A stretch of 64,000 nucleotides of DNA from Hyphomicrobiales bacterium (lineage in GTDB: Bacteria > Pseudomonadota > Alphaproteobacteria > Rhizobiales > Rhizobiaceae): assembly GCA_900469965.1 (NCBI GenBank), contig UBZP01000001.1, positions 310,001 through 374,000 on the forward strand, written 5' to 3'. Shown here in pieces: positions 10,205 to 24,893 of the stretch. The notes beneath the pieces were generated by a model. The model was not told where the DNA came from. It made no database searches and was given only the letters and a program-made list of their open reading frames with translations. Within the stretch, counting starts at the first letter, position 1. Every line of letters starts with the position of its first letter. A program made the position numbers and the translations under genes.

Positions 10205-11074
10205 ATGCAGCCAAACGACCGCTCATTCCGTCTCTCGCTCGTGGTCGCCACGCTCGGCCGCTCGGACGAGCTGACGCGACTGCTGGGCTCGCTCGCAGCA
10301 CAGACGGTGTCGGACTTCGAGGTGATCATCGTCGACCAGAACAGCGACGATCGCGTGCTCGGCCCGATCGCGCAGCACAGCCGCCGCCTCGAGATCGTGC
10401 ATGTCAGGACGCCGAGGAAAGGCGTCTGCCGCGCGCGCAACCTCGGCGCGTCGGTGGCACGCGGCGAATGGCTGATGTTTCCGGACGACGACTGCTGGTA
10501 CCCGGAAAGCCTTCTGGAGCGCTATCGGCACGTGACCGAGACGATGCCCGCCGACTTCTACTGCGGCCGCGCCACCAACGCGGCCGGACAGACGATCATG
10601 GGCACGTTCGAGACCCGCCCGGTGCGGATCCGGCGCGACAACGTCTGGACGACGCTGATCGAATGGATGCTGGCGGTGCGAAAGCACGACTTCACCGCGG
10701 CGGGCGGGTTCGACGAGAGGATCGGGCCGGGCTCGGGCACGCCGTGGGGCGCCTACGAGGTGCAGGATTTCGTGCTGACGCTGCTGGAGCGCGGGCTCAC
10801 GGGCCGGTACGATCCGACGCTTGCCGGACACCATCCCGAGGACATGACCGACCAGACCGTGCCGGCGAACATCGCCAAGATCCGCTGCTACAGCGCCGGC
10901 CTCGGCTATGTGATGCGCAAGCACGGCTTCGGCCTTTCCGGTTTCCTGCCGCGCCTGCTGCGGCCGCTCGCGGGAATGAGCGTCTACGCGCTGACGGGCC
11001 GCCCGGCGATGGCGCGGCGCTCGCAACAGATCATGATCGGCCGTCTGGACGGATGGCGGAGGGCGGCAGAGTGA
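10205..11074 (+). CDS. Family 2 glycosyltransferase
   Basis: 289-residue inverting GT-A glycosyltransferase. The nucleotide-sugar fold opens with LSLVVATLGRSDELTRLLGSL, the first Asp is in IIVDQNSDD, and the metal-binding motif is PDDDCWYP. No transmembrane segment is obvious, so it probably acts at the cytoplasmic face of the membrane. AGGA lies seven bases before the ATG. The stop overlaps the GTG of the following hydrolase (GTGA), so the two are coupled. Sugar donor and acceptor are unknown; the locus suggests surface polysaccharide. Confidence 0.85.
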   Translation: MQPNDRSFRLSLVVATLGRSDELTRLLGSLAAQTVSDFEVIIVDQNSDDRVLGPIAQHSRRLEIVHVRTPRKGVCRARNLGASVARGEWLMFPDDDCWYPESLLERYRHVTETMPADFYCGRATNAAGQTIMGTFETRPVRIRRDNVWTTLIEWMLAVRKHDFTAAGGFDERIGPGSGTPWGAYEVQDFVLTLLERGLTGRYDPTLAGHHPEDMTDQTVPANIAKIRCYSAGLGYVMRKHGFGLSGFLPRLLRPLAGMSVYALTGRPAMARRSQQIMIGRLDGWRRAAE

Positions 11075-12876
11075 CGACCATGCTGCGGTCCAACGACCTT
11101 GCGGCGGCGGCCGACGAAAGCGCCACCTGGACGCCAGGGTCGGCGGCCCTGCCCGTTTCTTTCGCCAGGACTGTCGGCCTCTTCACGCCGCCGGGGCCGG
11201 GGGCGGCACCCTCCGACTGCGCCGTGCTCTTCCTCAGCCCATGGGGCTTCGAGGAGATGTGCACGCGCAAGCTCTGGCGGCAGCTCGCGGAACGGTTCTC
11301 GGGCCTCGGGGTTGCGAGCCTCCGCTTCGACTATCCGGGGACGGGCGACTCTCTCGACGCGATGGAGTTTTCCGGCGGCCTGCCGGTGTGGCAGGCGGCG
11401 ATCGAGGCCGCGGCGGCCGAACTGCGCCGCCTGTCCGGCGCCTCGAAGCTGGTCCTCGTGGGGCACGGGCTCGGCGCGACGCTCGCGGTCCTCTCGGCGG
11501 GCAAACTCGGAGCCGTAGAAGGAATGGCGCTGATGGCGCCGGTGGTCAGCGGGCGCTTCTACCTGCGCGAACTCTCGGCCTGGTCGAAGATGGTGGACGA
11601 CGGCCTGGGGCTTGGCGAGGACCAGCGCATCACGTCGAAGACCTCGATCGCCGGCCTGGTCATGCCGGACGACGTCGCGGACGCGGTGCGCAGGATCAAT
11701 CTCCAGGCCACGGAGATCGCACCGGCCCCGTCGATCCTGATGGTGCACAGGCCTGCCCGGGAGAACGAGACGGCACTCGCCACCCGGCTGGAAGAGCTCG
11801 GTGCCGCCGTCTCCCGACAACCCTATCTCGGCTACGACGAGCTCGTCTCCAACCCGACCATCGCGACCCAGCCCGACGCGGTCGCGACACGCGTTGCCGA
11901 ATGGGTCGGGACGCTGGCGGCCGCGGCCGGACCTGCGAGCGGATCATGGTCGTCGCCCGGCACAGCCGTTCTGGGCGGCGACGGCTTCTTCGAGGAGCCG
12001 CTGCGGTTCGGGCCCCGGAGCCGGCTTTCCGGCGTCCTCTGCACGCCGGCCGCGGCGCGGCGCGGCGCATCCGTCATCCTGCTCGGCACCGCCTACGACC
12101 GGCACGCCGGATGGGCGCGCTCGACCGTGGAGACGGCCAGGTGCCTTGCGCTGCAGGGCATCGCCTCGCTGCGGTTCGATGCCGCCAATGTCGGCGACAG
12201 CCCGCCGGTCGAGGGCGCGCCGGGGCAGGTGCTCTTTTCGGAAAACCAGAAGGATGACGTGCAAGCCGCCTTCGACCTGATGGCCGCGCGTCAGCTCGCG
12301 CCGGCCGTTCTTGCCGGGCGATGCAGCGGCGCCTATCTCGCCTTCCAGAGTTCGCTAGACGAGCCACGCTGCCGCGGCGTCGTCGCCGTCAACCCCTTCA
12401 CCTTCGTCTGGGACCCCGACGACAGCGTCGACGAGGCCCTGCGGTACAATCCGCGCTCGCTGGGCGATTACCGCAAGCGGGCGCTGCGGCTGGACACCTT
12501 GCGCCGGCTCGCCGCCGGCCAGATCGATCTCGGGCGTGCCGCAGCCAATATCGGCAAACAGCTCGGCCGCCGGGCGGCCGCGGCGGCACCGGGCCTGCTG
12601 GGACACCTGACGAAGTACGGCCGGCTGCAGCGGTCGGTGCTGTCCGCCTTCCGCACCCTTGCCGGGCGGCGGACGCCCGTGCGGCTGATCTACAGCGAGA
12701 CCGACGTGGGGCTCGAACGATACCACGCCTATTTCGGGGCGGACGGGGCGGGCCTGAGGGCGTTTGCGAACGTCTCAGTCGAGGTCGTCCGCGATGCCGA
12801 CCACAACATGTCGCCGCCTGCCGCCAGAGCCCTCCTGCAACGGCGGATCGTCGAGGCCGCGCTGGCCGACGACTGA
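11071..12876 (+). CDS. Two-domain alpha/beta hydrolase with altered nucleophiles
   Basis: 601 residues carrying two consecutive alpha/beta-hydrolase domains (about 35-275 and 310-600), like the hydrolases linked to exosortase-type polysaccharide loci. In domain 1 the nucleophile elbow reads GHGLG (131-135), with Gly133 where Ser is expected, and no catalytic His is evident. In domain 2 it reads GRCSG (416-420), with Cys418 as nucleophile, and DADHN supplies His578. Domain 1 is thus probably structural and domain 2 active. GTG at 11071 is chosen because GGAGGG lies seven bases upstream; ATG 11080 is the alternative. Possible role: an esterase, thioesterase or acyltransferase in polymer modification. 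No exosortase gene is present. Confidence 0.8.
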   Translation: MTTMLRSNDLAAAADESATWTPGSAALPVSFARTVGLFTPPGPGAAPSDCAVLFLSPWGFEEMCTRKLWRQLAERFSGLGVASLRFDYPGTGDSLDAMEFSGGLPVWQAAIEAAAAELRRLSGASKLVLVGHGLGATLAVLSAGKLGAVEGMALMAPVVSGRFYLRELSAWSKMVDDGLGLGEDQRITSKTSIAGLVMPDDVADAVRRINLQATEIAPAPSILMVHRPARENETALATRLEELGAAVSRQPYLGYDELVSNPTIATQPDAVATRVAEWVGTLAAAAGPASGSWSSPGTAVLGGDGFFEEPLRFGPRSRLSGVLCTPAAARRGASVILLGTAYDRHAGWARSTVETARCLALQGIASLRFDAANVGDSPPVEGAPGQVLFSENQKDDVQAAFDLMAARQLAPAVLAGRCSGAYLAFQSSLDEPRCRGVVAVNPFTFVWDPDDSVDEALRYNPRSLGDYRKRALRLDTLRRLAAGQIDLGRAAANIGKQLGRRAAAAAPGLLGHLTKYGRLQRSVLSAFRTLAGRRTPVRLIYSETDVGLERYHAYFGADGAGLRAFANVSVEVVRDADHNMSPPAARALLQRRIVEAALADD

Positions 12877-12923: not shown

Positions 12924-15392
12924 TCAGAAGGAGACCGGAGCCTGCAGGTTCAGGGCGGAGAACTCGCCGGCGGGGCGATCCACGGCACCGAGCTGCGCCA
13001 GCCGGATCACGCGCTCCCGCCCCGGCGCAAGATGGAACCAGTTGTCCGAAGGCAGGAAGCCAGGACAGGCGATATGGGCCGACTGCAGCAGCCGGTCCGC
13101 AGCGACCCGCAGTTGCCAGCCCTCGTCCCCCTCTTCCAAGACAACCGTCGCCGCTGCCGAATGAAGGGCGCGGGTCCGGCCTTGCGGGAAATGGAAGGCT
13201 TCGGCGAGGATCGCCGATCCGTCCGTCTCCTCCCGCAGGCTCGCGATCGTGACGTCATGCGAGGGCGGGCCGAAGCGGAAGGCATAGGTCGTGTCGAAGA
13301 ACGCGCCGAAGAGATCGGTGGCGGCGATGGTGGCGGTGCCGTGGGCCGCAAGCGTCAGGGCGCGGCGGCCGCTGACGACGGGCTGGCGACCGTCACGCAG
13401 GCAGGCGAGCTCGAGGACAAGCGCGCGGCCGCTACCCGTCTCGTTGATCACGTGCACGTCGAGACCGTTGGTGCCCTCGTCCGACAGCAGCACCTGGAGC
13501 GGACGGAAAGCGCGCCGCAGCGCATGCCAGGCCGGCTTCGGCAGGCCGGTGGCGTCGACGATGCCCCACCCCGCGCCCGGCTGGAGATCCTGAAGCGTCC
13601 AGACCAGCGCGCCGTTGCAGGTCGATTGCGGCCGACGCCATTCGGAATAGGTCGCCTCCATGACCTCGCCGGTGACGGCGCGGGAGAGGTCGAGGTAGCG
13701 CGCAGGATCCTCGCGGCGCAGGCGCGCCGGATCATGGTCGTAGAGCAGGCCGAGATAGTGGTCGCGCACGTCCTCGAAGTCCCACGAAGCGCCGCGATCG
13801 CGCGGGACCCGCGCCTTCCAGCGGGGATCGTGAACGGCGGGGACGGGCAGATGCGCATCGAGCGTCGCCTGCTCCGGCACGTTGGCGAACGCCAGCGCTT
13901 CGGCTGCGAAGCGCACCGCCGCCCGGCGCGCATCCTCGAGCGGCCGGCAATAGGCACCGACGCCGTAGTAGTGCGCGACGCCGGCATTTGGGGAGAACGG
14001 CATGGCACCGCCAAAGGGCGAGTTGGGAACGAAGGGAACGTCCGGGCGGAGCGTTCGCACGCCCTCGGGCAGCACCGTCTCCGTCAGCGGCCCGCGCCAT
14101 GCGTCCGCCGGCAGGCCGAGCATCGCCGCCTGCTGGAACACCTCGCTGCCGCCGCAAAGGACGGCCAGCGACGGCGAGGGGGCGGTGCGCAGCAGCAACT
14201 GCTCGACTTCGGTTTGCAGCAGGGCGACGAAATGCTCATCGGCGGCCGGATAGTCGAAATTCGCCAGCATGACGTCCTGCCAGACGAGAATGCCGAGCTC
14301 GTCGCACAGCTCAAAGAAGGCATTGGTCTCATAGGCCATGGTGCCGCCGATGCGCAGCATGTTCATGCCGGCTTCGGCCGCAAGCCGCAGGGTCGGCGCG
14401 TAGCCCGCCCGCGTGCCCGGCAGGTCGACGATGTCCGCATTCGTCCAGACGGCACCGCGGCAGAAGACCGGGACGCCGTTCACCCGCAAGCCGAAACCGC
14501 TGCCATCGGGACCGGTGTCGATATCGATGCGGCGGAAGCCGGTGCGACCGAGCGCATGGCGTTCGCCATCGAGTTCGGCCTCCACCGCATGGAGGACCGG
14601 GCGACCGTGGGTGTGCGGCCACCAGGCGGCGACGTCCATGATCCGGAGCTCGCCGCTCCAGCGGCCGTCGGCGGTGCGATGCATGGGCACGGCAGTGCCG
14701 GCACAGTGCAGCACGGCCGTGCGTGTGCCCGCGTCCGCCGAAAACGAAACGGCAAGATGCCCGGCGCCGTCCGGCGCAAGGCTCGAAGCGATGCGGATAT
14801 CCCGCGGACGGCCCGGCTGCGGCCGCAAGAGCCGGACGGGGCGATAGGGACCGACGGCGTGCACAGACGGGCACCAGCCCGGCATCCGGCCGAGCAGGGT
14901 CGTGCGGGTGAGCCGAAGGCCCTGCGGAACGATCATCTGCGGGCGCCAGCGGGCGCGCGGGCCGCGTCGCTCCAGATGCGGCGCGAGCGCGCGAAAGCAG
15001 ATCGCCAGATGGTCCTTCCCGCTGACCTGCACGTCGATCCGATGGCCGACGAACATCGAATCCGAGGCAAGCAGGAGCGCGCCGTTCCAGTAGACCTCCG
15101 CGATCGTCGCCAGGCCTTCCAGCTCGAGCACGGCCGGGCCCGGCCGCTCACCGGACAGATCGAGCAGGTACCATGCATCGTATCCGTCGAGCGGCATCGG
15201 CTCGTCGCGGTCGAAGCGGCCGGCGTGCTCCAGGGCGCCCGCGACCGTTCCCGGAACCGGCGCATCCAGCCTCTCGGCGTCGCGGTCGATCATCGACGGG
15301 TCGGACCAGGCGCCGGCCGCCGTCAGGCACAGCTTCCAGCCCCTGTCCAGCTCGATCGTGGACGGAGACGTGCGCTCTGCCGGCTCGCTCAT
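12924..15392 (-). CDS. Glycoside hydrolase family 2 protein (beta-mannosidase-like)
   Basis: 822 residues with the GH2 layout: N-terminal jelly-roll (YLLDLSGERPG, VYWNGALLLASDSMFVGHR), immunoglobulin-like domain, then a TIM barrel (about 290-620) with GIVDATGLPKPAWHALRR near its end, as in beta-mannosidases. The acid/base site reads CGGSE (Glu417), with Ser where clan GH-A normally has Asn. A candidate nucleophile is the Glu in RFAAEALAF. No signal peptide is seen, so it is probably cytoplasmic. GGAGG lies six bases before ATG 15392. It is last in the carrier-protein operon, 15 bp after DUF1839. Activity is uncertain because of the altered site. Confidence 0.82.
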   Translation of the reverse strand: MSEPAERTSPSTIELDRGWKLCLTAAGAWSDPSMIDRDAERLDAPVPGTVAGALEHAGRFDRDEPMPLDGYDAWYLLDLSGERPGPAVLELEGLATIAEVYWNGALLLASDSMFVGHRIDVQVSGKDHLAICFRALAPHLERRGPRARWRPQMIVPQGLRLTRTTLLGRMPGWCPSVHAVGPYRPVRLLRPQPGRPRDIRIASSLAPDGAGHLAVSFSADAGTRTAVLHCAGTAVPMHRTADGRWSGELRIMDVAAWWPHTHGRPVLHAVEAELDGERHALGRTGFRRIDIDTGPDGSGFGLRVNGVPVFCRGAVWTNADIVDLPGTRAGYAPTLRLAAEAGMNMLRIGGTMAYETNAFFELCDELGILVWQDVMLANFDYPAADEHFVALLQTEVEQLLLRTAPSPSLAVLCGGSEVFQQAAMLGLPADAWRGPLTETVLPEGVRTLRPDVPFVPNSPFGGAMPFSPNAGVAHYYGVGAYCRPLEDARRAAVRFAAEALAFANVPEQATLDAHLPVPAVHDPRWKARVPRDRGASWDFEDVRDHYLGLLYDHDPARLRREDPARYLDLSRAVTGEVMEATYSEWRRPQSTCNGALVWTLQDLQPGAGWGIVDATGLPKPAWHALRRAFRPLQVLLSDEGTNGLDVHVINETGSGRALVLELACLRDGRQPVVSGRRALTLAAHGTATIAATDLFGAFFDTTYAFRFGPPSHDVTIASLREETDGSAILAEAFHFPQGRTRALHSAAATVVLEEGDEGWQLRVAADRLLQSAHIACPGFLPSDNWFHLAPGRERVIRLAQLGAVDRPAGEFSALNLQAPVSF

Positions 15393-15407
15393 GCGCATCC
15401 TCCAGCC

Positions 15408-16382
15408 TCAGTCGAGCCGGCGTTCGAGCACGGCCATCATCTCGTCCCAGGCGGCGGCCGCCGGGTCGAGCGCGGTCGCAAGCGGCTCGAAGCGCTTGCG
15501 GGTCACCGCGCGGGCGAGCTGGAACTGCACGGACTTGGCGGTCTCGGCGATACGGCGGGCGGCTGCCGCTGCATCCGACAGCGTGCCGTCCGGGGCAAGC
15601 CAGTCCAGGTGGCTCGCGGCGAGCTCGAAATTGGCGCCGAGCTGGCGCAGCGTGTTGAAGGCATATTTATGGAAGAAACCGAACGGGCGTTCCGCGACGG
15701 CCTCGACCTGAGCCGGGAAGACGGCCGCGAAGGCGGCAACGGGGTTTTCCGGCGGCCGGCGCTGCAGGTGGAACCGCAGCAGGCGACGGGCGGCTCTTGC
15801 CATGTCGGCCACGGCAGGGCGCGCGGCGGGGAACTTGACGAATTCCGTGTACGGCAGGAACGGCAGCGCATCGGCCGGCGCGTCGAGCTGGAACAGCCCG
15901 TCGAAATCCTCGCCTTCCAGCCGGAAAAAGCCGGCATTGTGGAAATAGTCGAGCGTGCGGGTGGCAAGGTCGAGCCGGTTGATCGCCACCGTCGTCTTGC
16001 CGTGTTCCAGCCGGTAGGCGACGCCGCGCGTATCGGGCATGTAGAAACTGTCCATCTCCACCAGGCAGAGACGGCCGCGACCGATCTGTTCCAGGACGTG
16101 GTGCTCCACCCGGTCGTAGATCGCAAGCTCGGTGCAGCGGATGCCGTAGAGGACCTCGAGGTCCTCCAGCGGCACCTTGAAGAAGGTGAACTGGTCGCCC
16201 TCGAAATCCTGCGTCAGGGTGAAGCCCAGCATGGCCTCCGGCGGCAGGGCGCGGGCGTTCAGCACCTCGATCCACAGGTCGACATAGCAGTTGGTCTCCG
16301 GCCACATGCGCTCGTGATCGTGCAGCGCGTGCGGCCGGTAGGTGGCGGGATCGAGCCCGGGAAAGACGGAAGGCGCTGCCAA
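15408..16382 (-). CDS. DUF1839 family protein of the aminoacyl-carrier operon
   Basis: 324 residues if started at the TTG at 16382, two bases after the ligase stop. The next ATG lies inside the conserved opening (TYRPHALHDHERMWPETNC), so the TTG is preferred. Recognisable segments are WPETNCYVDLWIEVL, DFEGDQFTFFKVPLEDLEVLYGI and LVEMDSFYMPDTRG. No membrane segments or signal peptide. DUF1839 has no established biochemistry that I know of. Its constant partnership with amino acid:carrier ligases suggests it accepts or transfers the carrier-bound aminoacyl group. This is inference. Confidence 0.82.
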   Translation of the reverse strand: MAAPSVFPGLDPATYRPHALHDHERMWPETNCYVDLWIEVLNARALPPEAMLGFTLTQDFEGDQFTFFKVPLEDLEVLYGIRCTELAIYDRVEHHVLEQIGRGRLCLVEMDSFYMPDTRGVAYRLEHGKTTVAINRLDLATRTLDYFHNAGFFRLEGEDFDGLFQLDAPADALPFLPYTEFVKFPAARPAVADMARAARRLLRFHLQRRPPENPVAAFAAVFPAQVEAVAERPFGFFHKYAFNTLRQLGANFELAASHLDWLAPDGTLSDAAAAARRIAETAKSVQFQLARAVTRKRFEPLATALDPAAAAWDEMMAVLERRLD

Positions 16383-16384
16383 GG

Positions 16385-17296
16385 TCAGCCCCAGAGGGTC
16401 TTGCGGACGCTCTCGGGCCAGTCGGCGACGTCGAGGCCGTGGGTATGGAACAGCGCCAATGCGATCCGTTCCAGGCCGAAGCCGACGCAGGCGGTGTGCG
16501 CCACGCTGCCATCCTCCATGGCCAGGCCCCACTTCGTGCCGAACGCATCCTGGTGATAGTTGAAGCTCATGCAGGCCGTGGGCTTCGCGACCGAGGTGAT
16601 CGGGATCAGCAGCTCGAACTTCAGGTTCTGGTCGCGCTGGTTGTTGGCCAGCATCTTGCCGGCGCGGCCGAAGAAGGGATCGTTGGCGACATCGATTGCA
16701 ACCTCGAGGCCGACCTCCTTCATCATGGCAACGCCGCGGTCCATCCAGGACTGGCGGAAATCGGTGACATGCGTCTCCGTGCCCATGCAGACATATTCGC
16801 GCATGCGGAAGAGCTGCTGGCGCGCCGGGTCCTGCGAGGGCTCGTGGCGGAAGCAGTAGGACTGCAGGTCGTAGAGCGCACCCTTGGCCGGAACCGGCCC
16901 ACGCTTTGCCACCGTCGGGTAGAGCGGATAGCAGGCGGCCGGCGTCAGCACGATGTCGGTCGCCTTCTGGTCCTTCGTCCAGTCCTCCTCGCCCACCTCC
17001 ATGCACTTGAGCAGGCTCATATGGTCGAGCTCGTTGCCGCAGAAGGAATGGACGGTGCCCGCGAGCTGCGGGAAGCTCTTCATGTAGCCGCTCTTTTCGA
17101 AGAAGGCGCGGTTCATGCCCGGCGGGAAGCGCATGGCTTCCGCGCCGTCGGCCCCGCCGAAGCGATCGATCAGCCGCTCGAATGCGACGATGACGTCCTC
17201 GAAGCGACCGCTGCGGCCGTAGAGCCCGTCAACGCCGGTATCGATCAGCAGGCCGGCATCGAACAGGCGGTCGAGAAACGAGGTCTGCATATCCAT
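16385..17296 (-). CDS. Amino acid--[carrier protein] ligase (seryl-tRNA synthetase-like)
   Basis: 303-residue class II synthetase core with no tRNA-binding domain. Motif 2 region [19 protein letters not shown] and motif 3 [12 protein letters not shown] are present. C122, E167 and C270 match the zinc ligands of Bradyrhizobium Bll0957 (C131, E176, C279, from memory) at a constant offset of nine. Characterised homologues activate glycine or alanine and load it as a thioester on a phosphopantetheine carrier instead of tRNA. The carrier gene lies two genes upstream in the same operon. ATG 17296 is six bases after the dehydrogenase stop. The amino acid used here is not known. Confidence 0.93.
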
Positions 17297-17302
17297 GGTT
17301 CT

Positions 17303-18475
17303 TCACCCCAGAAGACTGGTGTCCTGCTTGTGGACGAGCAGGAGATTGGACGTGTTGCCGAGAATGCGGTCGTTGGAGATCATCAGCTGGGCCGAATGCG
17401 CGTCGCGCAGGTGCCGGCCGAGGCTGTAGGGCGTGCCGTTCTTGTAGCCCATGATGCCGCAGATCAGCATGGCGTGGTTGATGATCGTCAGGATCGTTTC
17501 CGACGAGCCGATCTTCAGATTGTTCATGGCGACGGCGAAACCCATCGAGGACAGGACGTCCTGATCCGTCTTTGCCGCCTCGAAGGCGTTCAGACCGGCG
17601 ACCACGTTGGATTTCAGAAGCTGCAGCAGACTGGAGGCTTCGGCGAGCCTGAGCGCGCCGGGCGGCGTCTGCCCCGGCGCCTTGCGGGCGGCGGCCCGGA
17701 CGAAGGCCTGTGCGCGGGCAAACGCGTTGACGGCGATGCCGTACCAGACGGCACTCCAGAGCAGGTGCGAGGTGGCCAGCATCGACTGGGCGGCGATTTC
17801 CGCAAAGGGCTTCGGCAGGATCTGCTCGGCCGGGGCCTCGCCCTTGAACAGGTAGCCGTCCGAGCAGGTGCCGCGCATGCCGAGCGTATCCCAGACATGG
17901 GTGCGCTCGAGCGTATACTGGTCCTTCGTGAAGACGGTCATGACCTGGTCGGTGGATGCGGCTTCGGCATGGCTGCGCGAGGTGATCAGGATCGCATCGG
18001 CGTTTGCGCCGTAGGAGATGACGGTCGCGTCCTTCTCCAGCCGGCAGCGGCCGCCCTCGACTTCGATGGCGCAGATGCTGTTGCGCAGGTTGCCGCCGAT
18101 GCCGCCTTCCGTCGTGGCGGAGGCCAGAAGCAGCTGTTCGTCGGCGATGCGGCGCATGAAGGCGCGGTGCCAGGCTGCGTCCGCCCCATGCGAGACGAGG
18201 CTCGACGCCTTGATCTGATGCATGGCGAAGACCATGGCGGCGGCAGCGCAGGACTGGCCCAGAATGGAGCAGACCTCGGCGATCTCGGCGATGCTCGCCC
18301 CCTCGCCGCCCAGTTCGACAGCGATCTGGATGGACAGCAGGCGTTCGGCGCGCATGGCATCCACCGCCTCCTGCGGGAAACGCCCCTTGGCGTCGACGTC
18401 GTCGGCGTGCGCTTCGGCTACCGCGGCAACGCGGGCGGCCCGTTCGGCTAGGCCCGCCCCGGTGGACATGTTCAT
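17303..18475 (-). CDS. Acyl-CoA dehydrogenase-like flavoprotein of the carrier operon
   Basis: 390 residues with the three-part acyl-CoA dehydrogenase fold: helical N-terminus (ELGGEGASIAEIAEV), central beta domain with FAD-contacting SATTEGGIGG and WDTLGMRGTCSDGYLF, and helical C-terminus (LRDAHSAQLMISNDRILG). It resembles the DszC/acyl-CoA dehydrogenase group. In nonribosomal pathways such flavoproteins oxidise aminoacyl groups held on carrier proteins, for example prolyl to pyrrolyl. By context this one probably acts on the thioester made by the neighbouring ligase. Its ATG overlaps the carrier stop (ATGA), giving tight coupling. Substrate inferred, not shown. Confidence 0.86.
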   Translation of the reverse strand: MNMSTGAGLAERAARVAAVAEAHADDVDAKGRFPQEAVDAMRAERLLSIQIAVELGGEGASIAEIAEVCSILGQSCAAAAMVFAMHQIKASSLVSHGADAAWHRAFMRRIADEQLLLASATTEGGIGGNLRNSICAIEVEGGRCRLEKDATVISYGANADAILITSRSHAEAASTDQVMTVFTKDQYTLERTHVWDTLGMRGTCSDGYLFKGEAPAEQILPKPFAEIAAQSMLATSHLLWSAVWYGIAVNAFARAQAFVRAAARKAPGQTPPGALRLAEASSLLQLLKSNVVAGLNAFEAAKTDQDVLSSMGFAVAMNNLKIGSSETILTIINHAMLICGIMGYKNGTPYSLGRHLRDAHSAQLMISNDRILGNTSNLLLVHKQDTSLLG

Positions 18476-18726
18476 TCGGCGGCCTCCGCGTTGCCGGTCA
18501 GCCCTTCCACCGTGCGCGTGATGGTCGCAATGCTCTGGAACGACTTGCGGTTGAGAAGATTGTCGGGAAACTCCAGGTCGAAGGCCTCCTCGATCGCCAG
18601 CATGATCTGGACGGAGGCGAAGGAGGACAGGCCCGCCGCGTAGAGGTCCTGGTCGTCGGCGATCTGGTCGACGGCGACAGGCAGGCCGCCATGCTTGGCG
18701 AGCAACTCACGGATTTTCTGCTTCAT
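18472..18726 (-). CDS. Acyl/aminoacyl carrier protein
   Basis: 84-residue acidic carrier protein. The phosphopantetheine site lies in DLYAAGLSSFASVQ, with Ser35 in the position of the DSL serine. The helical pattern and LEFPDNLLNRKSFQSI match acyl/peptidyl carriers. It is first in the operon and is the expected acceptor for the synthetase-like ligase. The start is ATG 18726; a longer in-frame ORF to 18918 reaches into the promoter region and has no homology. It is separate from the fatty-acid AcpP gene, which is not in this window. Confidence 0.92.
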   Translation of the reverse strand: MKQKIRELLAKHGGLPVAVDQIADDQDLYAAGLSSFASVQIMLAIEEAFDLEFPDNLLNRKSFQSIATITRTVEGLTGNAEAAE

Positions 18727-19107
18727 GGCGACACTCTCCCGTGCTGTTTTCTTGTCGGCAGGCCACGCCGCCCGCCCGGTCTCGTTCAACCAGAGGCATA
18801 CAGAACGAGAGATAAGAACGCTTGAAGGGACATGGATAAGATTCCATGAAGGCGGCCCGGCTGGCGCATCTGGCCGGGGAACGGCGGCCGCCCTGAGACC
18901 GGCCGCCCCGAAAAGCATCGTATTTTCAATATCCTTTATATGTCCCCCCGCCCCTGCCGCCGCCGTCTTTCCTGCGCGCCGGTTGAGAGGTTGTTAACCA
19001 TAATCTGAGAGGTTGCGGGACGGTTCTCGGGAAGCGCCGCGCGATCGGGCGGCGGCGGGGACCGTGGATTCGGCCGCTTCCGAGAGGGACCGGCAATCGG
19101 GCATGTG
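18727..19107 (+). promoter_or_regulatory. Divergent regulatory region between carrier operon and wzz-like gene
   Basis: 381 bp without a gene. It serves both the carrier operon (leftward) and the Wzz/Wzy genes (rightward). An AT-rich patch at 18920-18945 gives -10-like sequences in both directions (TATAAA leftward, TTATAT rightward). Two TGAGAGGTTG repeats flank a TTAACCAT element at 18994-19001. I see no small ORF with a ribosome site. Confidence 0.6.
18984..19015 (+). repeat. 10-bp direct repeat TGAGAGGTTG flanking a CtrA-type half-site
   Basis: TGAGAGGTTG occurs at 18984-18993 and 19006-19015, start-to-start 22 bp, about two helical turns, which suits a dimeric activator or repressor. Between them at 18994-19001 is TTAACCAT, the half-site form reported for CtrA. 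The block lies about 95 bp before the wzz-like start. Confidence 0.6.
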
Positions 19108-21129
19108 ATGGACATCGACATTTTTCAGTTGCCGGGCATCGTGAGGAAGAGGATCCACTACGTGATCCTCGCCGCGGTGGTCTGCGCCCTGCTGGGAATG
19201 GCCTTCGTCCTCACCCAGAAGCCCTTCTACCGCTCGACCGCGGAGATCTTCGTCGACATCGGGGCGGGGCCCGTCGTCGGCACCGACACGGGCGGTTCCC
19301 TCAACGTGCAGCAGGTGATCGGCAGCCAGGTCTATCTGATCCAGTCGCGCGACGTGCTGCACCAGGTCGTCACCAAGCTCAACCTCACCAGCGATCCCTA
19401 TTTCAACCACCGCGGGCTCCTGTCCCGGTTGCTGGGGGGCGCCAAGGCCGATGCCGCGACGGTCGACGGCGTCATCAATGCGCTTCTGGAGAACCTGAGC
19501 GTCGCGCGCAACGGCGACAGCTTCGTCTTCACCATCACCGTTAAGCACGGAAACAGCGAGATGGCCGCGAAGATCGCCAATGCGATTGCCGAAAGCTATC
19601 TGGCGGTCGCCGACAAGGCACGCCTGGACGTCAGCCTGAAGACCACCCGCACGATCGCCGAGCAGGCGGAAGAGCTGCGCCAGCGGGCGCTGGACGCACA
19701 GAAGGCGGTGGAGGACTTCCGGGCCGAGAACGGCATGATCAGCGCCGGCGACCAGGGTCTGATCACCGACCAGCAGCTCGCCGGCCTGAACCAGCAATTG
19801 CTGACCGCGCGCCAGCAGGTGGAGCAACTGAAGACGGCCTACGAACAGGCGCGCCAGCTCAACGTGTCCAATGTCGAGGCGGGCGCCATTCCCGAAACGC
19901 TGAATTCAGGCGCACTCTCCGGGCTTCGCAGCCGCTATTCGCAGGCGCTCGACCGGCAGGCCGAACTGGCGGCCAACCTCGGCAACGACCATCCGCAGAT
20001 GCGTGCCATCCGCTCCCAGATCGCCAGCATCCGCAACGCCATCGAGATCGAGCTGGAGCGTATCCGCCAGCTGTCGGCCAATACCTACGAGCGCAGCCGG
20101 GCGAACCTCGCCTCGCTGGAAAAACGCTTCGACGAGCAGGCGGCCTCGACGAAGGACAGCGGCAAGCTCCGCTTCCAGCTGGTGCAGCTGACGAGCGAAG
20201 CGCAGGCCATCGATGCGGTCTACAAGGCCTTCCTCACCCGGGCGGAGGAACTGAGCCGCCAGCAGGATCTCGGCAACGGCAACTCACGGGTCATTTCCGA
20301 AGCCGTGCCGTCGGACAAGGCCGTGCAGGCGCCGAAGCTGCTGGTGCTGATCGCCGCCATTCTGTTCGGTGCGGCCGCCGGAGCGGCGCTCGCGGTCCTG
20401 CGGGAGCTGCTCGGCGGCACCCGGCGCATCGAACGGAGCCTCGTCGCCAGGACCGGCGCACCCATGCTGGCCGTGATGACGGGCAGCGAGCCCTCCCCCG
20501 CAAGCCGCCTCGACAGGCTGGCGCGCCGGATGCCGTTCGCACGGCCGGCCGCACCGGAAGCCTTGCCGCACGAGGCCGGGATCCGCAGGCTGCGCCAGCT
20601 GCTCGAAGCGGAATTCGGCACGACCCGACCCGCCACCATCGCCTTCCTGTCGCCCGACGGCAGCGGCCGGAACGAGGTCGCCGCCGCGGTGGCGCGCGAG
20701 CTGCATCTGGCCGGCGAGGTCGTGCTCTTCTGCGGCGGCGAACTTCGCCGCAGGGACCATCTGGCCGCACGACCGTCCGCGAGCGTCAAGATCCGCCTCG
20801 ATGCCGCAGCGCCGCGCGACCATGCGCTTCAGGATATCTTGCACTTCGAACGCATCGGTTCCGGCGGACTGAGAAGGATCGCGGCGCTCGGATCCTCCCG
20901 CGTCAGTACCGCGCCCCGGTCCGAGCCCGTCGACTTCGCCGTCGTCGATTGCAGCGGCACGCCCGCCGAAACGGTGATCCCCACCGTGCTCAGGCACGGC
21001 GACGCCGTCATCATCGTCTCGACGGTCGGCGTTTCGGGGGGCGATGCGCTCGATACGCTGATGGCGGAGATCGGCCCGTGGCGCGACAAGATCCTCGGCA
21101 ACGTCCTCCTGTCGGGCAAGGCCTCATAG
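19108..21129 (+). CDS. Wzz/GumC-type polysaccharide chain-length protein with degenerate kinase domain
   Basis: 673 residues. First membrane segment near 20-38, a long periplasmic region rich in coiled coil (about 150-350), second membrane segment near 412-432, then a cytoplasmic domain to the end. This is the architecture of bacterial tyrosine autokinases that set polymer length. The Walker A position reads SPDGSGRNEV (515-524) with no lysine or Ser/Thr, and no tyrosine cluster follows, so the kinase half is probably inactive. ATG 19108 is used, with GTG 19105 as alternative. Followed 11 bp later by the polymerase gene. Confidence 0.87.
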   Translation: MDIDIFQLPGIVRKRIHYVILAAVVCALLGMAFVLTQKPFYRSTAEIFVDIGAGPVVGTDTGGSLNVQQVIGSQVYLIQSRDVLHQVVTKLNLTSDPYFNHRGLLSRLLGGAKADAATVDGVINALLENLSVARNGDSFVFTITVKHGNSEMAAKIANAIAESYLAVADKARLDVSLKTTRTIAEQAEELRQRALDAQKAVEDFRAENGMISAGDQGLITDQQLAGLNQQLLTARQQVEQLKTAYEQARQLNVSNVEAGAIPETLNSGALSGLRSRYSQALDRQAELAANLGNDHPQMRAIRSQIASIRNAIEIELERIRQLSANTYERSRANLASLEKRFDEQAASTKDSGKLRFQLVQLTSEAQAIDAVYKAFLTRAEELSRQQDLGNGNSRVISEAVPSDKAVQAPKLLVLIAAILFGAAAGAALAVLRELLGGTRRIERSLVARTGAPMLAVMTGSEPSPASRLDRLARRMPFARPAAPEALPHEAGIRRLRQLLEAEFGTTRPATIAFLSPDGSGRNEVAAAVARELHLAGEVVLFCGGELRRRDHLAARPSASVKIRLDAAAPRDHALQDILHFERIGSGGLRRIAALGSSRVSTAPRSEPVDFAVVDCSGTPAETVIPTVLRHGDAVIIVSTVGVSGGDALDTLMAEIGPWRDKILGNVLLSGKAS

Positions 21130-21140
21130 GAGACGCGAGG

Positions 21141-22472
21141 ATGGCCCGCACGGAAACGATCGGCACCGGGACGGGTTTCGGCAACCGGTTCGGCCGCAGC
21201 AGCCCCGATGTGCGCCACGACGCTGCTGTGCCGGCCGGGATCGATCCCGTGCGCATTGCGGCGATCGTGACGGTGATCGGCGGCCTGGTGTTCAACGCTC
21301 TCCTCTGCCTGGTCAACACCCGTTTCATGGGGACGGCCGACCGCCACGTCATCATGTCGGAGCTTGCGATCGTCGGCTGTGCGTTTCTCGCGGCAATGAC
21401 GCGACGATCGACGCTCTACGTGATCCTCGGCGTCTTCGTCAGCTACATGATGTTCCTGTTCATGCTGCGCGGGCAGGTGAACCCGAAGGCCGTCCGCGAC
21501 ATCCTGATCCCGCTGACCTTCTATTTCATGGCCGCCCGCATCGCGGATGCGAAGCTCGCCGACAAGCTCGTGATGGCAAGCGGCCTGATCGTCGTCGGCT
21601 TCGGGCTCTTCGAATATCTCTTCCTCGAGACCTTCCTCGAATACTTCAACGTGATCGGCTACTACCTGGCGCGCGGCACGGTGACGCTGGACCAGGTGTT
21701 CGGTCAGACCAAGGGTCTGTTCATCTCCGGCCAGCGCCCCGAGGCCCGCACGATCCTGCCCTTCCTCGGCCAGCACCGCGTCTCCTCCGTCTTCCTGGAG
21801 CCGGTCTCGATGGGCAATTTCGCCGTGATCATCTATTCATGGGCGCTCTATCGCGGGCGCGCCTTTCCGGGCCGGTGGCTGGTGTTCGCGCTGGCCGTCA
21901 CCGTGATCGCTCTGGCCGACGCCCGCTTCGGGCTCTACAGCTGCGTGCTGATCACGCTGCTCTATCCGGTCTATTCGTTCCTGCCGCGACTGGTCTGGGT
22001 GGTCCTGCCCTTCTTCCTGCTCGCCGTGCTGACGATCTACGGCATCACCTCGGTCTCCGGCGGCGGCCCGAACGATCTCGCCGGACGCTTCGCCGTCACC
22101 GCGCATATCCTGACGCAGCTCGACCTCGGCGTCGTGCTCGGCTCGGAGACGACCGATGCATTCACCGCCGATTCCGGCATCTCCTACTCGCTGACCGCGT
22201 TCGGCATCTTCGGCTTCATCGGGCTTTGGACGATGTTCGTGCACGCACCGTTGAAGGAGGCGCGGGCCTGGCGCTTCCACTCGATGATGATCGTCTACCT
22301 GCTGCTGCTGATGCTGATCAGCGACTCGTTCTATTCGATCAAGACCGCCGCCCTGATGTGGTTCCTGGTGGGCACCGCCGGCGCCTGCCGGGATGCGACC
22401 CCGCCGCGACGGCCCGTCCTCGCGAAGACGCCGGTGCGGCGGGTCGCACCGACCCTGCCACGGCACGCGTGA
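21141..22472 (+). CDS. Wzy-like polysaccharide polymerase (multi-pass membrane protein)
   Basis: 443 residues with about ten hydrophobic segments and a larger external loop around FVIGYYLARGTVTLDQVF to FLEPVSMGNFAV, the layout of O-antigen/EPS polymerases. These join lipid-linked repeat units in the periplasm. The short signature FLGQHRVSSVFLEPVSMGN is seen in GumE-like proteins as I recall. AGGAGACGCGAGG precedes the ATG. Directly after the Wzz-like gene and presumably in one operon. Converges on the GH5 gene with six bases between stops. Confidence 0.83.
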   Translation: MARTETIGTGTGFGNRFGRSSPDVRHDAAVPAGIDPVRIAAIVTVIGGLVFNALLCLVNTRFMGTADRHVIMSELAIVGCAFLAAMTRRSTLYVILGVFVSYMMFLFMLRGQVNPKAVRDILIPLTFYFMAARIADAKLADKLVMASGLIVVGFGLFEYLFLETFLEYFNVIGYYLARGTVTLDQVFGQTKGLFISGQRPEARTILPFLGQHRVSSVFLEPVSMGNFAVIIYSWALYRGRAFPGRWLVFALAVTVIALADARFGLYSCVLITLLYPVYSFLPRLVWVVLPFFLLAVLTIYGITSVSGGGPNDLAGRFAVTAHILTQLDLGVVLGSETTDAFTADSGISYSLTAFGIFGFIGLWTMFVHAPLKEARAWRFHSMMIVYLLLLMLISDSFYSIKTAALMWFLVGTAGACRDATPPRRPVLAKTPVRRVAPTLPRHA

Positions 22473-22478
22473 CGGCTC

Positions 22479-23570
22479 CTACTCGGTCTGGCCGAGCGCC
22501 GGGCAGGCGCCGGTCTTCGCCGGGATGCTGCCGCCATATTCGAGGGCGCGCAGCTGCAGCCGGTCGCCGTCCTTGGTCGGCTGGATGTTGAGTGCCTCGG
22601 TCGGCGGCCACCAGTCGCCGGCCGCCCAGTAGGTCCAGCCGGTCCACACGTCCGGGGCGCCGTCGACCACGGCGGTCATGCGGGACAGCGCCGTCAGGCA
22701 TTCGGTCTTGGCGGATGCGCCGAACTCGCCGAGAAAGCCACGCTTGCCGTTCTCGCGCAGCCAGGCGGTGAAGCGCTCGAGTGCCGCGACGGCGCTCTCC
22801 GCGCCCTCGCAGGTGTCGTGCGTGCCGGAGAAATCGTCGTCGAGATACTGGTGGACCTCATAGGCGTAGTTCTTCGCCGGATCCTCGACGCCCAGCATCA
22901 CGCGGGCGTTCGAGCCGCCGGGCCGGTCGCTCTCCCAGCTGTGGGCGCCGGTCCAGATCGTGCCGGGGACGTAGACGAGATTGTCCGCCCCCGTGCTGCG
23001 GATCGCGGCGATGGCGGCGTTGGCCGCAACGAGCCATTGATCGGCCGGAATGTCGTGAGGCTCGTTCATCAGGCCGAACTGCACGGCCGGGTCGTTGGCG
23101 AACTCCGTGGCTAGCCTGCGCCAGAAGTCGGCGAAGGCCTCCACTGGGACCTCGTCGGAACCGATCTGCCGGCCGGCGTGATAGGCGTAGTTGTGCGGAT
23201 CGAGAACCACCGTGAAGCCGGCCGCCTTCAGGCGCTTGACGGTGTCGACGAGGCGCCGGCGCTCGCCCATCGCGAACGCCCGGCCGAGCCTCGGCTGGAG
23301 ACGCTCCCAGCGGAACGGCAGCCGCGCGCCATTGAACCCCTTGCCGGCGAAATACGCGATCGTCTCGTCACCGGGATAGATGTAGTCCTTGCCGTAGACG
23401 CCCGGCGGGTCGCCGAACTCGGCGCCGGCGAAGTTGACGCCGCGCATGCAGGCGGCGGAGGCCTCGAGCGGAAGGATCAGGGCCAGCGCCAGCCCGCCGA
23501 TCCGCAGTGCCCCACGTCTGGCATGCGCGGACCGGGATGCGATCCGCCCGGTACGCCGGCGCTCAGCCAT
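22479..23570 (-). CDS. Secreted GH5 endoglucanase-like glycoside hydrolase
   Basis: 363 residues with an N-terminal arginine-rich signal peptide (ARRGALRIGGLALALILPLEASA), then a GH5 TIM barrel starting CMRGVNFAGAEFG. Acid/base Glu lies in FGLMNEPHD and the nucleophile in GFLGEFGAS. VVLDPHNYAYHAG and YEVHQYLDDDFSG supply conserved His residues. It would cut a beta-glucan outside the cytoplasm, possibly trimming the polymer made by this locus. ATG 23570 overlaps the GT4 stop by eight bases; ATG 23585 is also possible. Cellulose or mixed-linkage glucan specificity cannot be told. Confidence 0.88.
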   Translation of the reverse strand: MAERRRTGRIASRSAHARRGALRIGGLALALILPLEASAACMRGVNFAGAEFGDPPGVYGKDYIYPGDETIAYFAGKGFNGARLPFRWERLQPRLGRAFAMGERRRLVDTVKRLKAAGFTVVLDPHNYAYHAGRQIGSDEVPVEAFADFWRRLATEFANDPAVQFGLMNEPHDIPADQWLVAANAAIAAIRSTGADNLVYVPGTIWTGAHSWESDRPGGSNARVMLGVEDPAKNYAYEVHQYLDDDFSGTHDTCEGAESAVAALERFTAWLRENGKRGFLGEFGASAKTECLTALSRMTAVVDGAPDVWTGWTYWAAGDWWPPTEALNIQPTKDGDRLQLRALEYGGSIPAKTGACPALGQTE

Positions 23571-24792
23571 TGGCCGCCACTTCATTGCCTTCACTGCCCT
23601 TTGCCGCCGGATCCCATTCGGGCGGGGCGACGCCCCCCAGTATCTCAGTGTAGATCTCGGCATAGCGCCGGGCCACATGATCCCACGCATAGCCGTCTGC
23701 CGCGCGCATGGCCCGCGTCCGGTAGCCGGCGACGTCGCGGGCGAGCGCCAGGAAGGCCGAGTGGATCGTTCCGGCGGCCGCTTCCGCGTCCTCGAAGTCG
23801 CAGAGGCGAATCTCCGGATGCTTGGCGGCGAGGTCCTCGTAGGCCTGGTTCGGATGCAGCAGGGGCATGAGACCCGCGCTCATCGCCTCGACCGCCACGA
23901 GGCCGAAGCCCTCGTATTCGGAGGCGGAGGCAAACAGCGAGCATCCCGAGATCAGCGTCCGGATCTCTTCGTTCGACAGGCCGACATGCAGCTCGATATG
24001 GTCCTCGAGCGCCCGCTGGCCGATCATCCGCTCAAGGTCCGCCTCGGTCAGGTCGCCCGGGACACCCACGACCGAGAGGCGCCAGTCCGGCTCGTGCACG
24101 ACGAGCCGCGACAGGGCTTCGAAAAGACGGTCGAGCCGCTTGTTGGACGAGAAGCGGCCGATGGTGACGATGCGGCGCAGCGGCTTGCCGGCGCCCGCGT
24201 TGCGGAATTTGGCGACGTCGGCGCCGTTGTCGACCTCGACGACCCGGCGTCCGGCGATCTTGCGGAACAGCCGAGCGTCCTGCGCGCTGCAGGCGATCAG
24301 CCGACGGTAGGCGAGCGCCGACAGGCGCGTCGTGACGTTGAACCAGGCGAGCTTGATTGCCGCATAGCGGTCGGTGTGAAAGAAGCCGCCATGGGTCGTG
24401 GCGACCAGCGGCTTGCCATGCAGGAGCTTGCCCCAGGCGAGCGCGTCGAAGAAGAAATCGATGGCATGCACGTGCACGAGGTCGGCATCCTTCAGATGCC
24501 GGAATACGCCCGGCGCGATGGGATAGCGGGAGCTGCCGGAGAACGGAATGCGCACCACCTCGATCCCGTCGACAGTCTCGCGGTCCGGCAACTTGCGATC
24601 GGGGGCGGTGAAGAGGCGATCGAGCGTCACGACGCGAACGCGGTAGCCGCGCGCGCAAAGCTGGCGTGACAGGTTGAGGACGACATCCTCCAGCCCGCCG
24701 CGGCTCGGCGGAAACTGGCGCACGACCTGCACGGCCAGCGGCGCGCGCCTGTCAGGATCGCTGGAAAGACTGCCTTGCAGAAATGCGTCCAT
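23563..24792 (-). CDS. Family 4 glycosyltransferase
   Basis: 409-residue GT-B enzyme. The N-terminal glycine loop is RQFPPSRGGLEDVVLNLSRQL, the phosphate-binding region is IGRFSSNKRLDRLFEAL, and the donor-binding E(x7)E motif is seen as EYEGFGLVAVEAMSAG. No membrane segments, so it probably works at the membrane face on a lipid-linked sugar. ATG 24792 (MDAFLQG) is preferred over 24816. First of a two-gene unit with the GH5 gene. A CtrA-type box lies about 100 bp upstream. Confidence 0.88.
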   Translation of the reverse strand: MDAFLQGSLSSDPDRRAPLAVQVVRQFPPSRGGLEDVVLNLSRQLCARGYRVRVVTLDRLFTAPDRKLPDRETVDGIEVVRIPFSGSSRYPIAPGVFRHLKDADLVHVHAIDFFFDALAWGKLLHGKPLVATTHGGFFHTDRYAAIKLAWFNVTTRLSALAYRRLIACSAQDARLFRKIAGRRVVEVDNGADVAKFRNAGAGKPLRRIVTIGRFSSNKRLDRLFEALSRLVVHEPDWRLSVVGVPGDLTEADLERMIGQRALEDHIELHVGLSNEEIRTLISGCSLFASASEYEGFGLVAVEAMSAGLMPLLHPNQAYEDLAAKHPEIRLCDFEDAEAAAGTIHSAFLALARDVAGYRTRAMRAADGYAWDHVARRYAEIYTEILGGVAPPEWDPAAKGSEGNEVAANG

Positions 24793-24893
24793 GCCGTCAT
24801 CCGTGCCGCATCGCATTGCGGGTCATCCGCAATTTCCAGGCGCCGGTCGATGACACGCGCCCCCCAAGCCTTCCGCAGAAGCGCAGGAAGCCC

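Follow-up and report, generated by a model that had tools for sequence, protein, structure and literature searches.

We analysed a 64,000-nucleotide window (positions 310,001 to 374,000 of contig UBZP01000001.1, GenBank assembly GCA_900469965.1, from a Hyphomicrobiales bacterium with a 5.34 Mb genome; G000, contig 20), in which an amino acid ligase related to aminoacyl-tRNA synthetases, its carrier protein and a DUF1839 protein are encoded in one compact operon beside polysaccharide genes. Ten genes of the window were scanned with Pfam and NCBIfam, and all positions are those of the window. Five genes of the operon lie on the reverse strand and a sixth, probable member converges on them. In our judgement there is about an even chance that these six genes form a module whose product is an amino sugar with an amide-linked aminoacyl group, destined most probably for a glycan of the cell surface. 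The genes of the module are:

18472..18726, reverse strand: CP, aminoacyl carrier protein of 84 amino acids with a predicted phosphopantetheine site at Ser35 (NF005480, PF00550)
17303..18475, reverse strand: ACAD, flavoprotein of acyl-CoA-dehydrogenase fold, 390 amino acids, without the usual catalytic Glu (PF02771, PF00441)
16385..17296, reverse strand: LIG, aminoacyl-tRNA-synthetase-like amino acid:carrier protein ligase of 303 amino acids (NF005479, PDB)
15408..16382, reverse strand: DUF1839, putative papain-fold CP-dependent acyltransferase, 324 amino acids from a TTG start (PF08893, model)
12924..15398, reverse strand: GH2, beta-mannosidase-like protein of 824 amino acids, no N-terminal signal detected (PDB matches)
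11053/11071..12876, forward strand: HYD, fused double alpha/beta-hydrolase (Pfam, NCBIfam)

An earlier sequence-only reading of this DNA had described five tight leftward genes (CP, ACAD, LIG, DUF1839 and GH2) with gaps or overlaps of 15 bp or less, and their order, strand, spacing and families were all borne out. CP and ACAD overlap by 4 bp, ACAD and LIG are 6 bp apart, LIG and DUF1839 are 2 bp apart given the TTG start of DUF1839 at 16382, and 9 bp separate the DUF1839 stop at 15408 from the GH2 ATG at 15398. The gene caller's choice for the start of DUF1839, an ATG at 16307, leaves a gap of 77 bp and clips the PF08893 match, which reaches 16349; it was rejected because the domain would be cut.

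LIG scored 516 bits against NF005479 ('amino acid--[acyl-carrier-protein] ligase'), for which the cut-off is 357, and its nearest PDB entries, 4h2w (6.5e-99) and 3mey (9.5e-94), are Bll0957 and its variants. Among 106 homologues all 15 checked conserved positions are kept, and C122, E167, C270, R150 and R277 are invariant; we take the Cys/Glu/Cys set to be zinc ligands and R150 and R277 to be the class II core arginines. CP reached 118 bits against NF005480 (cut-off 72) and also matched the PP-binding domain PF00550, with Ser35 kept in 74 of 74 aligned homologues. A table within a review (PMC9437257) gives Ala, Gly and Ser as the amino acids added by such ligases. The loading of carrier proteins by this family, on which the earlier reading had relied, is established knowledge, and with the window's LIG passing the family score, the prediction that it loads a small amino acid on CP is strongly supported.

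DUF1839 matches PF08893 with 451 bits. Its fold was taken from a structure model because a sequence search against the PDB gave nothing meaningful. The model, built from 28 sequences, has a predicted local distance difference test score (pLDDT) of 91.4 and a predicted template modelling score (pTM) of 0.91, and when compared with the PDB by Foldseek it returned the AziU2-U3 entries (1.2e-8), CtaG (6.1e-7) and CcbD (4.2e-5). The VIA Z scores were 18.4 for CcbD, 18.2 for AziU2-U3 and 16.9 for CtaG, the next best match being at 7.7; the matching chain of the AziU2-U3 entries is taken as AziU3, an assignment of our own. Over 270-286 residues, DUF1839 aligns with CcbD, AziU3 and CtaG at Z 15.7-18.4 and 11-14% identity. 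In an alignment of 76 rows, Cys32, His127, Lys129 and His148 are invariant but for one gap (75 of 75 letters for Cys32, 76 of 76 for His148), and Thr or Ser occupies positions 130 and 131. Cys32 would be the nucleophile near the N-terminus, as in the CcbD/AziU3/CtaG fold. AziU3 itself reportedly catalyses ring-closing C-N bond formation, not amide formation.

For CcbD, passages of a 2025 review (PMC12945683) describe a Cys-His-Glu triad like that of cysteine proteases and a ping-pong reaction between carrier-bound proline and a thiooctose amino sugar, and attribute to the enzyme a tolerance in both acceptor and acyl use. CtaG was proposed, in part of a 2019 paper (PMC6772006), to take an acyl group off one carrier and hand it to a beta-alanine chain that is itself bound to a carrier. 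A section of a 2023 classification (PMC10318531) places DUF1839 among papain-like proteins with a Cys-Thr/Ser-His arrangement and suggests for it a possible acyl-CoA-dependent role in the processing of glycans at the cell wall. DUF1839 resembles CcbD/LmbD, as well as AziU3 and CtaG, in its fold, in a conserved Cys close to the N-terminus and in having a carrier protein as partner, and CcbD is the member that links an amino sugar with an aminoacyl group; in contrast to the CcbD/LmbD systems, no antibiotic gene set was recognised near the window's operon.

The flavoprotein ACAD carries the Pfam N- and C-terminal domains of acyl-CoA dehydrogenases (PF02771, PF00441), and the best PDB match of its family profile is 7p98, a short-chain acyl-CoA dehydrogenase (9.7e-28), followed by others of that kind and, lower down, by DnmZ (1.9e-18), DszC (1.2e-16) and prolyl-ACP dehydrogenase (4.5e-14). 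In the profile alignment, I366 of ACAD falls on the glutamate of the C-terminal YE of 3pfd, which we take to be the usual catalytic base of acyl-CoA dehydrogenases. Of 100 homologues, 97 have Ile here and 3 have Val, and none has the classical glutamate. We weakly prefer monooxygenation over classical alpha,beta-dehydrogenation. The earlier claim that the amino acid is oxidised on the carrier by this flavoprotein fits, although with the Glu missing the oxidation could be of more than one type.

Sixteen PDB sequences matched GH2: 12 are beta-mannosidases by name, one is a beta-glucuronidase and three are called 'glycoside hydrolase family 2'. The best match is 5n6u at 5.3e-46. Glu419 and Glu500, which align with Glu residues of 2je8 and are kept in 75 of 75 homologues, are presumably the acid/base and nucleophile pair. 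By a simple hydropathy test none of 76 GH2 proteins begins with a strongly hydrophobic segment, which points to a probably cytosolic enzyme; that it trims a glycosylated acceptor is our guess. HYD was found within the stretch in 52 of 78 loci that carry DUF1839 and in 0 of the 28 others, and it adjoins GH2 in 35 of the 52, on the same strand in 15 and convergently, as in the window, in 20. Annotations of Azospirillum sp. B510, A. brasilense, A. lipoferum and Mycetohabitans rhizoxinica put it right behind GH2 in the same orientation, and in Methylobacterium bullatum our hidden Markov models (HMMs) place it directly after GH2. The C-terminal half of HYD keeps a GxCxG motif with Cys in 52 of 52 proteins and an Asp-His pair in 50 of 50 letters, whereas at the nucleophile position of the N-terminal half 51 of 52 carry Gly or Arg. 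All eight HYDs among the distant plasmid loci described below retain GxCxG. A cysteine nucleophile of this kind would suit acyl transfer, and HYD is probably the sixth gene of the unit.

To judge how general this arrangement is, 105 stretches were taken around ligase or DUF1839 matches, which together with the window make 106 loci, some of them ending at contig ends. These fall into type A, with DUF1839 (78 loci, window included), type B (23) and type C (5). CP, ACAD, LIG, DUF1839 and GH2 lie on the same strand in the same order in 76 of the 78 type A loci, GH2 being absent in L060, which reaches a contig end, and in L115. This conservation of the operon exceeds chance. Of 397 genomes of the order, 88 had an NF005479 match above the cut-off, and DUF1839 was present in 15 of 61 relatives and in 5 of 385 genomes drawn across the class, the window's genome being counted in both. 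A pattern scan found a DUF1839 relative in at least 580 genome-contig stretches; among 80 listed named loci near the window's DUF1839, mostly from Rhizobium, Shinella and other Rhizobiaceae, 79 have all five genes. The same type of scan found no DUF1839 relative in viral contigs. Plasmid records with a DUF1839 relative numbered 59, of which 13 loci form the distant plasmid set.

Two further arrangements were seen on these plasmids. In L267 and L275, both from Cupriavidus, a single stretch of 31 kb holds two copies of DUF1839 on opposite strands together with HYD, an initiating sugar transferase and two Wzz genes. In L270 (plasmid pCC283b_4 of Rhizobium leguminosarum) the operon has insertion sequence (IS) transposases on both sides, and what remains of GH2 is a short frame that matches weakly (194 bits); the copy therefore appears decayed.

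On the other side of CP, the window continues with genes of a polysaccharide locus:

18727..19107, no strand: intergenic region between CP and WZZ, where promoters would be expected (sequence)
19108..21129, forward strand: WZZ, chain-length determinant or polysaccharide co-polymerase-like protein of 673 amino acids (PF02706, PF13807)
21141..22472, forward strand: WZY, polytopic membrane protein, Wzy/WaaL-like by fold only (low-confidence model)
22479..23447, reverse strand: GH5, cellulase-family hydrolase (PF00150, 6.9e-50)
23563..24816, reverse strand: GT4 glycosyltransferase (PF00534, PF13439)

The divergent Wzz-like and Wzy-like genes of the sequence-only reading are confirmed in strand and position, and WZZ is clear from its Pfam domains (Wzz PF02706 at 3.5e-10, GNVR PF13807 at 5.7e-12). 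The identity of WZY is softer. It has no match of its own in Pfam or NCBIfam, and among its homologues there are two weak Pfam matches, each in one protein; the 12 members of its cluster have 7-9 hydrophobic segments. Foldseek found nothing below E 0.001 for its low-confidence model (pLDDT 63), and the match to the O-antigen ligase WaaL (7tpg) comes from the second aligner only (VIA Z 15.3 over 291 residues at 4.5 A, the next match at 7.3), so that a Wzy/WaaL-like assignment appears reasonable but soft. The genes past WZY are, by Pfam, GH5 and then GT4; the earlier reading overlooked both of them, and HYD as a probable sixth member of the unit. The frame of GH5 extends upstream of the called start (22479-23690), and its translation includes a segment resembling a signal peptide, from which GH5, unlike GH2, is probably exported.

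We then asked how often such neighbours accompany the operon. The marker set consisted of GT4, GT2, WecG, Wzx, Wzy, Wzz and the initiating transferase, with marker HMMs made from neighbour clusters that took their names from Pfam or from their similarity by homology with GT4, WZZ and WZY of the window. One or more markers were present at 52 of 78 loci of type A, compared with 9 of 23 in type B and 0 of 5 in type C; among 40 control stretches, which were taken at random from type A genomes and are the first 40 of a draw of 51, 2 had a marker. Counted by genus on 77 of the 78 type A loci (L070 was left out), a marker occurs in at least one locus in 17 of 32 genera. Since the marker HMMs derive from the case loci, a point that tells against these counts, linkage was retested with Pfam Wzz over whole genomes, one genome per genus, the position of DUF1839 standing in for the ligase in 8 of 32 genomes. 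Three distances were tried: of the 32 genera, 13 have Wzz no more than 15 kb away (0.53 expected), 5 no more than 10 kb away (0.36 expected) and 13 no more than 20 kb away (0.70 expected). The 13 linked genera span 7 families of the survey; as genera share ancestry, the Poisson figure for this linkage overstates the certainty. The set of GT4, GH5, WZY and WZZ is rearranged and still adjoins the operon in L163 and L166. Among the 13 distant plasmid loci, markers were found in 5, all from Burkholderiaceae: two Cupriavidus and two Burkholderia loci with Wzz, initiating-transferase or GT4 neighbours, and one Caballeronia locus with a single GT4. Polysaccharide linkage is therefore real, recurrent and incomplete. 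The earlier claim that the operon is wired into a polysaccharide locus stands as an enrichment and not as a rule: Wzz is linked in 13 of 32 genera, and markers accompany 52 of 78 type A loci and 5 of 13 distant plasmid loci. That reading would fall if polysaccharide genes were not conserved beside the operon, and on this the neighbourhood survey gives no clean answer in either direction.

Putting these elements together, we hypothesise the following route to an aminoacyl amide of an amino sugar. LIG would adenylate a small amino acid and load it on the phosphopantetheine arm at Ser35 of CP, and ACAD may then oxidise the carrier-bound aminoacyl group. Cys32 of DUF1839 would accept the acyl group and pass it to the amine of an amino sugar, giving an amide by a ping-pong reaction of the CcbD type. 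The earlier reading had already assigned a transfer to DUF1839; what stands of that assignment is the fold, whose only strong PDB relatives are CcbD, AziU3 and CtaG, together with the conserved Cys, and from these we infer the reaction and the acceptor. The apparently cytosolic GH2 could trim or edit the glycoside that bears the acceptor, and the cysteine half of HYD could transfer an acyl group a second time or act in proofreading by hydrolysis. In roughly half of the genera with the module the product would feed a surface polysaccharide built by the adjoining genes, a step suggested by a gene linkage that is enriched but partial. The end product would in that case be a decorated polysaccharide.

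Several observations weigh against this route. In the section of PMC10318531 already cited, the triad order of DUF1839 is reported to depart from the canonical one, Thr/Ser and His being swapped relative to CcbD/LmbD. The sequence link between DUF1839 and BtrH_N (PF14399) is weak (2 of 28 members, best E 0.0021), as is the hhalign comparison with BtrH homologues (probability 9.5%). For the flavoprotein, 7p98, although named an acyl-CoA dehydrogenase, has Thr at the position aligned to I366 and thus also lacks the Glu, so the missing Glu in ACAD does not exclude dehydrogenation. On the side of the neighbourhood, no marker was present in the examined stretch of 26 of 78 type A loci, in any locus of 15 of the 32 genera, or in 8 of the 13 distant plasmid loci. 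The last are three from Azospirillum, one from Methylobacterium, one from R. leguminosarum, the one from Mycetohabitans and two from Caballeronia. An annotated pelG lies at the edge of one of these marker-free Caballeronia stretches, and near the Mycetohabitans operon there are an annotated lipid A aminoarabinosyltransferase and a gene of the LTA synthase family.

A surface-glycan product is our leading reading, and a free sugar-derived metabolite is a real rival. On that alternative, which we regard as doubtful, the module makes a lincosamide-style diffusible amino-sugar metabolite, and the polysaccharide neighbours reflect only a recurrent, non-functional location or shared regulation. It is favoured by the natural-product enzymes that stand closest to DUF1839 in fold, by the 59 plasmid records and by the loci of Azospirillum (3 loci), Mycetohabitans and Methylobacterium, where all six genes occur with no polysaccharide gene found by the marker HMMs within 15 kb. 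It is at odds, however, with the Wzz linkage in 13 genera of 7 families, far above expectation, with the persistence of the linkage through rearranged gene order and across two bacterial classes, and with the annotated neighbour clusters, which showed no transporter cluster except polysaccharide flippases.

It is unlikely that DUF1839 is instead an amidase, thioesterase or protease that strips aminoacyl groups from glycans or from mischarged CP, within a unit that recycles or degrades a decorated glycan together with GH2 and HYD. The papain fold, the two further hydrolase-fold proteins of the unit and a GH2 that looks catalytically competent from its residues would agree with such a role, and the section of PMC10318531 consulted here says only that DUF1839 might process glycans in an acyl-CoA-dependent way. 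Against it, the nearest folds of DUF1839 are biosynthetic enzymes, GH2 and DUF1839 have no hydrophobic N-terminus, and the presence of an ATP-using ligase with CP points to synthesis rather than degradation. Similarly improbable is an acceptor that is a lipid or an outer-membrane glycolipid and not a polysaccharide repeat unit. The operon is not always accompanied by polymerase or co-polymerase genes, and an Acyl_transf_3 gene (PF01757) lies beside CP in five loci, as does an annotated acyltransferase in Mycetohabitans, but the annotated neighbour clusters showed no lipid-specific gene conserved with the unit. A supply of aminoacyl-CP to nonribosomal peptide synthesis, raised by the title of Mocibob et al. 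2010 (PNAS) and by a remark in a 2010 note in proof, is very unlikely and was rejected, since neither a condensation nor an adenylation domain occurs in the ten window genes scanned, DUF1839, GH2 and HYD are the partners that are conserved, and the note in proof itself (PMC2922099) argues against it.

To our knowledge, the purpose of aminoacyl carrier proteins charged by synthetase relatives has been unsettled since 2010, and the amino acid:carrier protein ligases around Bradyrhizobium Bll0957 and Agrobacterium Atu2573/Atu2574 were reportedly described by Mocibob in 2010 and 2013. The operons of Bll0957 and Atu2573-Atu2574 share with the window the ligase family, a carrier protein, a redox enzyme, a conserved uncharacterised protein, a glycosidase and envelope-sugar neighbours; the window copy shows no difference in kind, HYD and the fold of DUF1839 being additions made here. 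A note in proof by Aravind et al. (Biology Direct 2010, PMC2922099) links, in the passage concerned, the ligase to an acyl carrier protein, a redox enzyme, Atu2574, a glycosidase and liposaccharide genes. It proposes that the Atu2574-type protein (DUF1839) forms an amide between an amino acid and an amino sugar and that the redox enzyme modifies the aminoacyl group, for which it already guessed monooxygenation. By that passage, the hypothesis of the sequence-only reading has essentially been in print since 2010, and the present analysis supports it in part. What is new here is the CcbD-type fold of DUF1839, the six-gene boundary, the cysteine of HYD, the missing Glu of ACAD and the measured linkage. 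An experimental test of the function of DUF1839 and this ligase operon was not found in a literature search that left subscription papers mostly outside; excerpts of an expression study list Atu2573, and those of a PhaR study give bll0957 and bll0958 as changed in the mutant. The fold evidence makes the 2010 proposal directly testable and, if it is true, plant-associated bacteria would carry a widespread, chemically undescribed modification of their envelope.

The halves of HYD match hydrolases 1 and 2 of the exosortase A system (TIGR03100 at 1.8e-27 and TIGR03101 at 1.8e-18). In contrast to these, HYD is fused in one protein and its scores are far under the curated cut-offs, and no exosortase was found among the ten window genes scanned.

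In type B, which we take to include the Bradyrhizobium kind, ACAD and LIG lie on one strand without DUF1839 or GH2, and CP is on the opposite strand in 21 of the 23 loci. Type B holds, among other TRANSFERASES, a protein of about 291 amino acids near or downstream of the ligase in 17 of the 23 loci (e.g. L069:8547-9419); it has no Pfam or NCBIfam match and to the eye is like a GNAT acyltransferase. Some type B loci have a second CP, an AMP-ligase and an SDR. Type C has a longer and distant ligase (151-164 bits, under the cut-off of 357), which in 4 of 5 loci lies between an MBOAT gene and CP. The pairing of related ligases with these partners suggests one charging machine that is served by different delivery enzymes across types A, B and C.

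This leads to a more specific version of the surface-glycan reading, possible in our view and tentatively held. The six-gene cassette would decorate an amino sugar of a surface polysaccharide with an aminoacyl amide that is oxidised and perhaps N-hydroxylated, as a cytosolic counterpart of the D-alanylation of teichoic acids driven by an aminoacyl-tRNA-synthetase relative, and the same ligase stem would be paired with DUF1839 in type A, a GNAT-like protein in type B and a DltB-like MBOAT in type C. Like the Dlt system, the window's module is predicted to use an amino acid on a small carrier protein that is moved to an envelope polymer, and distant ligase relatives sit in dlt-like operons with MBOAT. 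It differs in that its ligase is of the aminoacyl-tRNA-synthetase type and not an AMP-ligase, and in that the predicted bond is an amide formed in the cytosol; a DltA-type AMP ligase and a DltB MBOAT are both absent from the ten window genes scanned. The dlt-like type C operons themselves would represent D-alanylation chemistry with a different charging enzyme.

In L119, the MBOAT protein matches TIGR04091 (DltB) at 1.3e-49 and also PF03062, and a search with the ligase of this locus in 385 genomes of the class returned one close relative (67% identity, G244) and others that were weaker. Dlt-like operons with an MBOAT gene, a synthetase-like ligase and CP were seen in genomes of the same taxonomic order as the window, at L119:9205-13760 (reverse strand), L118:6622-10685, L120:4697-8725 and L103:7653-10735, and in three of these four (L119, L118, L120, L103) an upstream protein looks, to the eye, SGNH/DltD-like.

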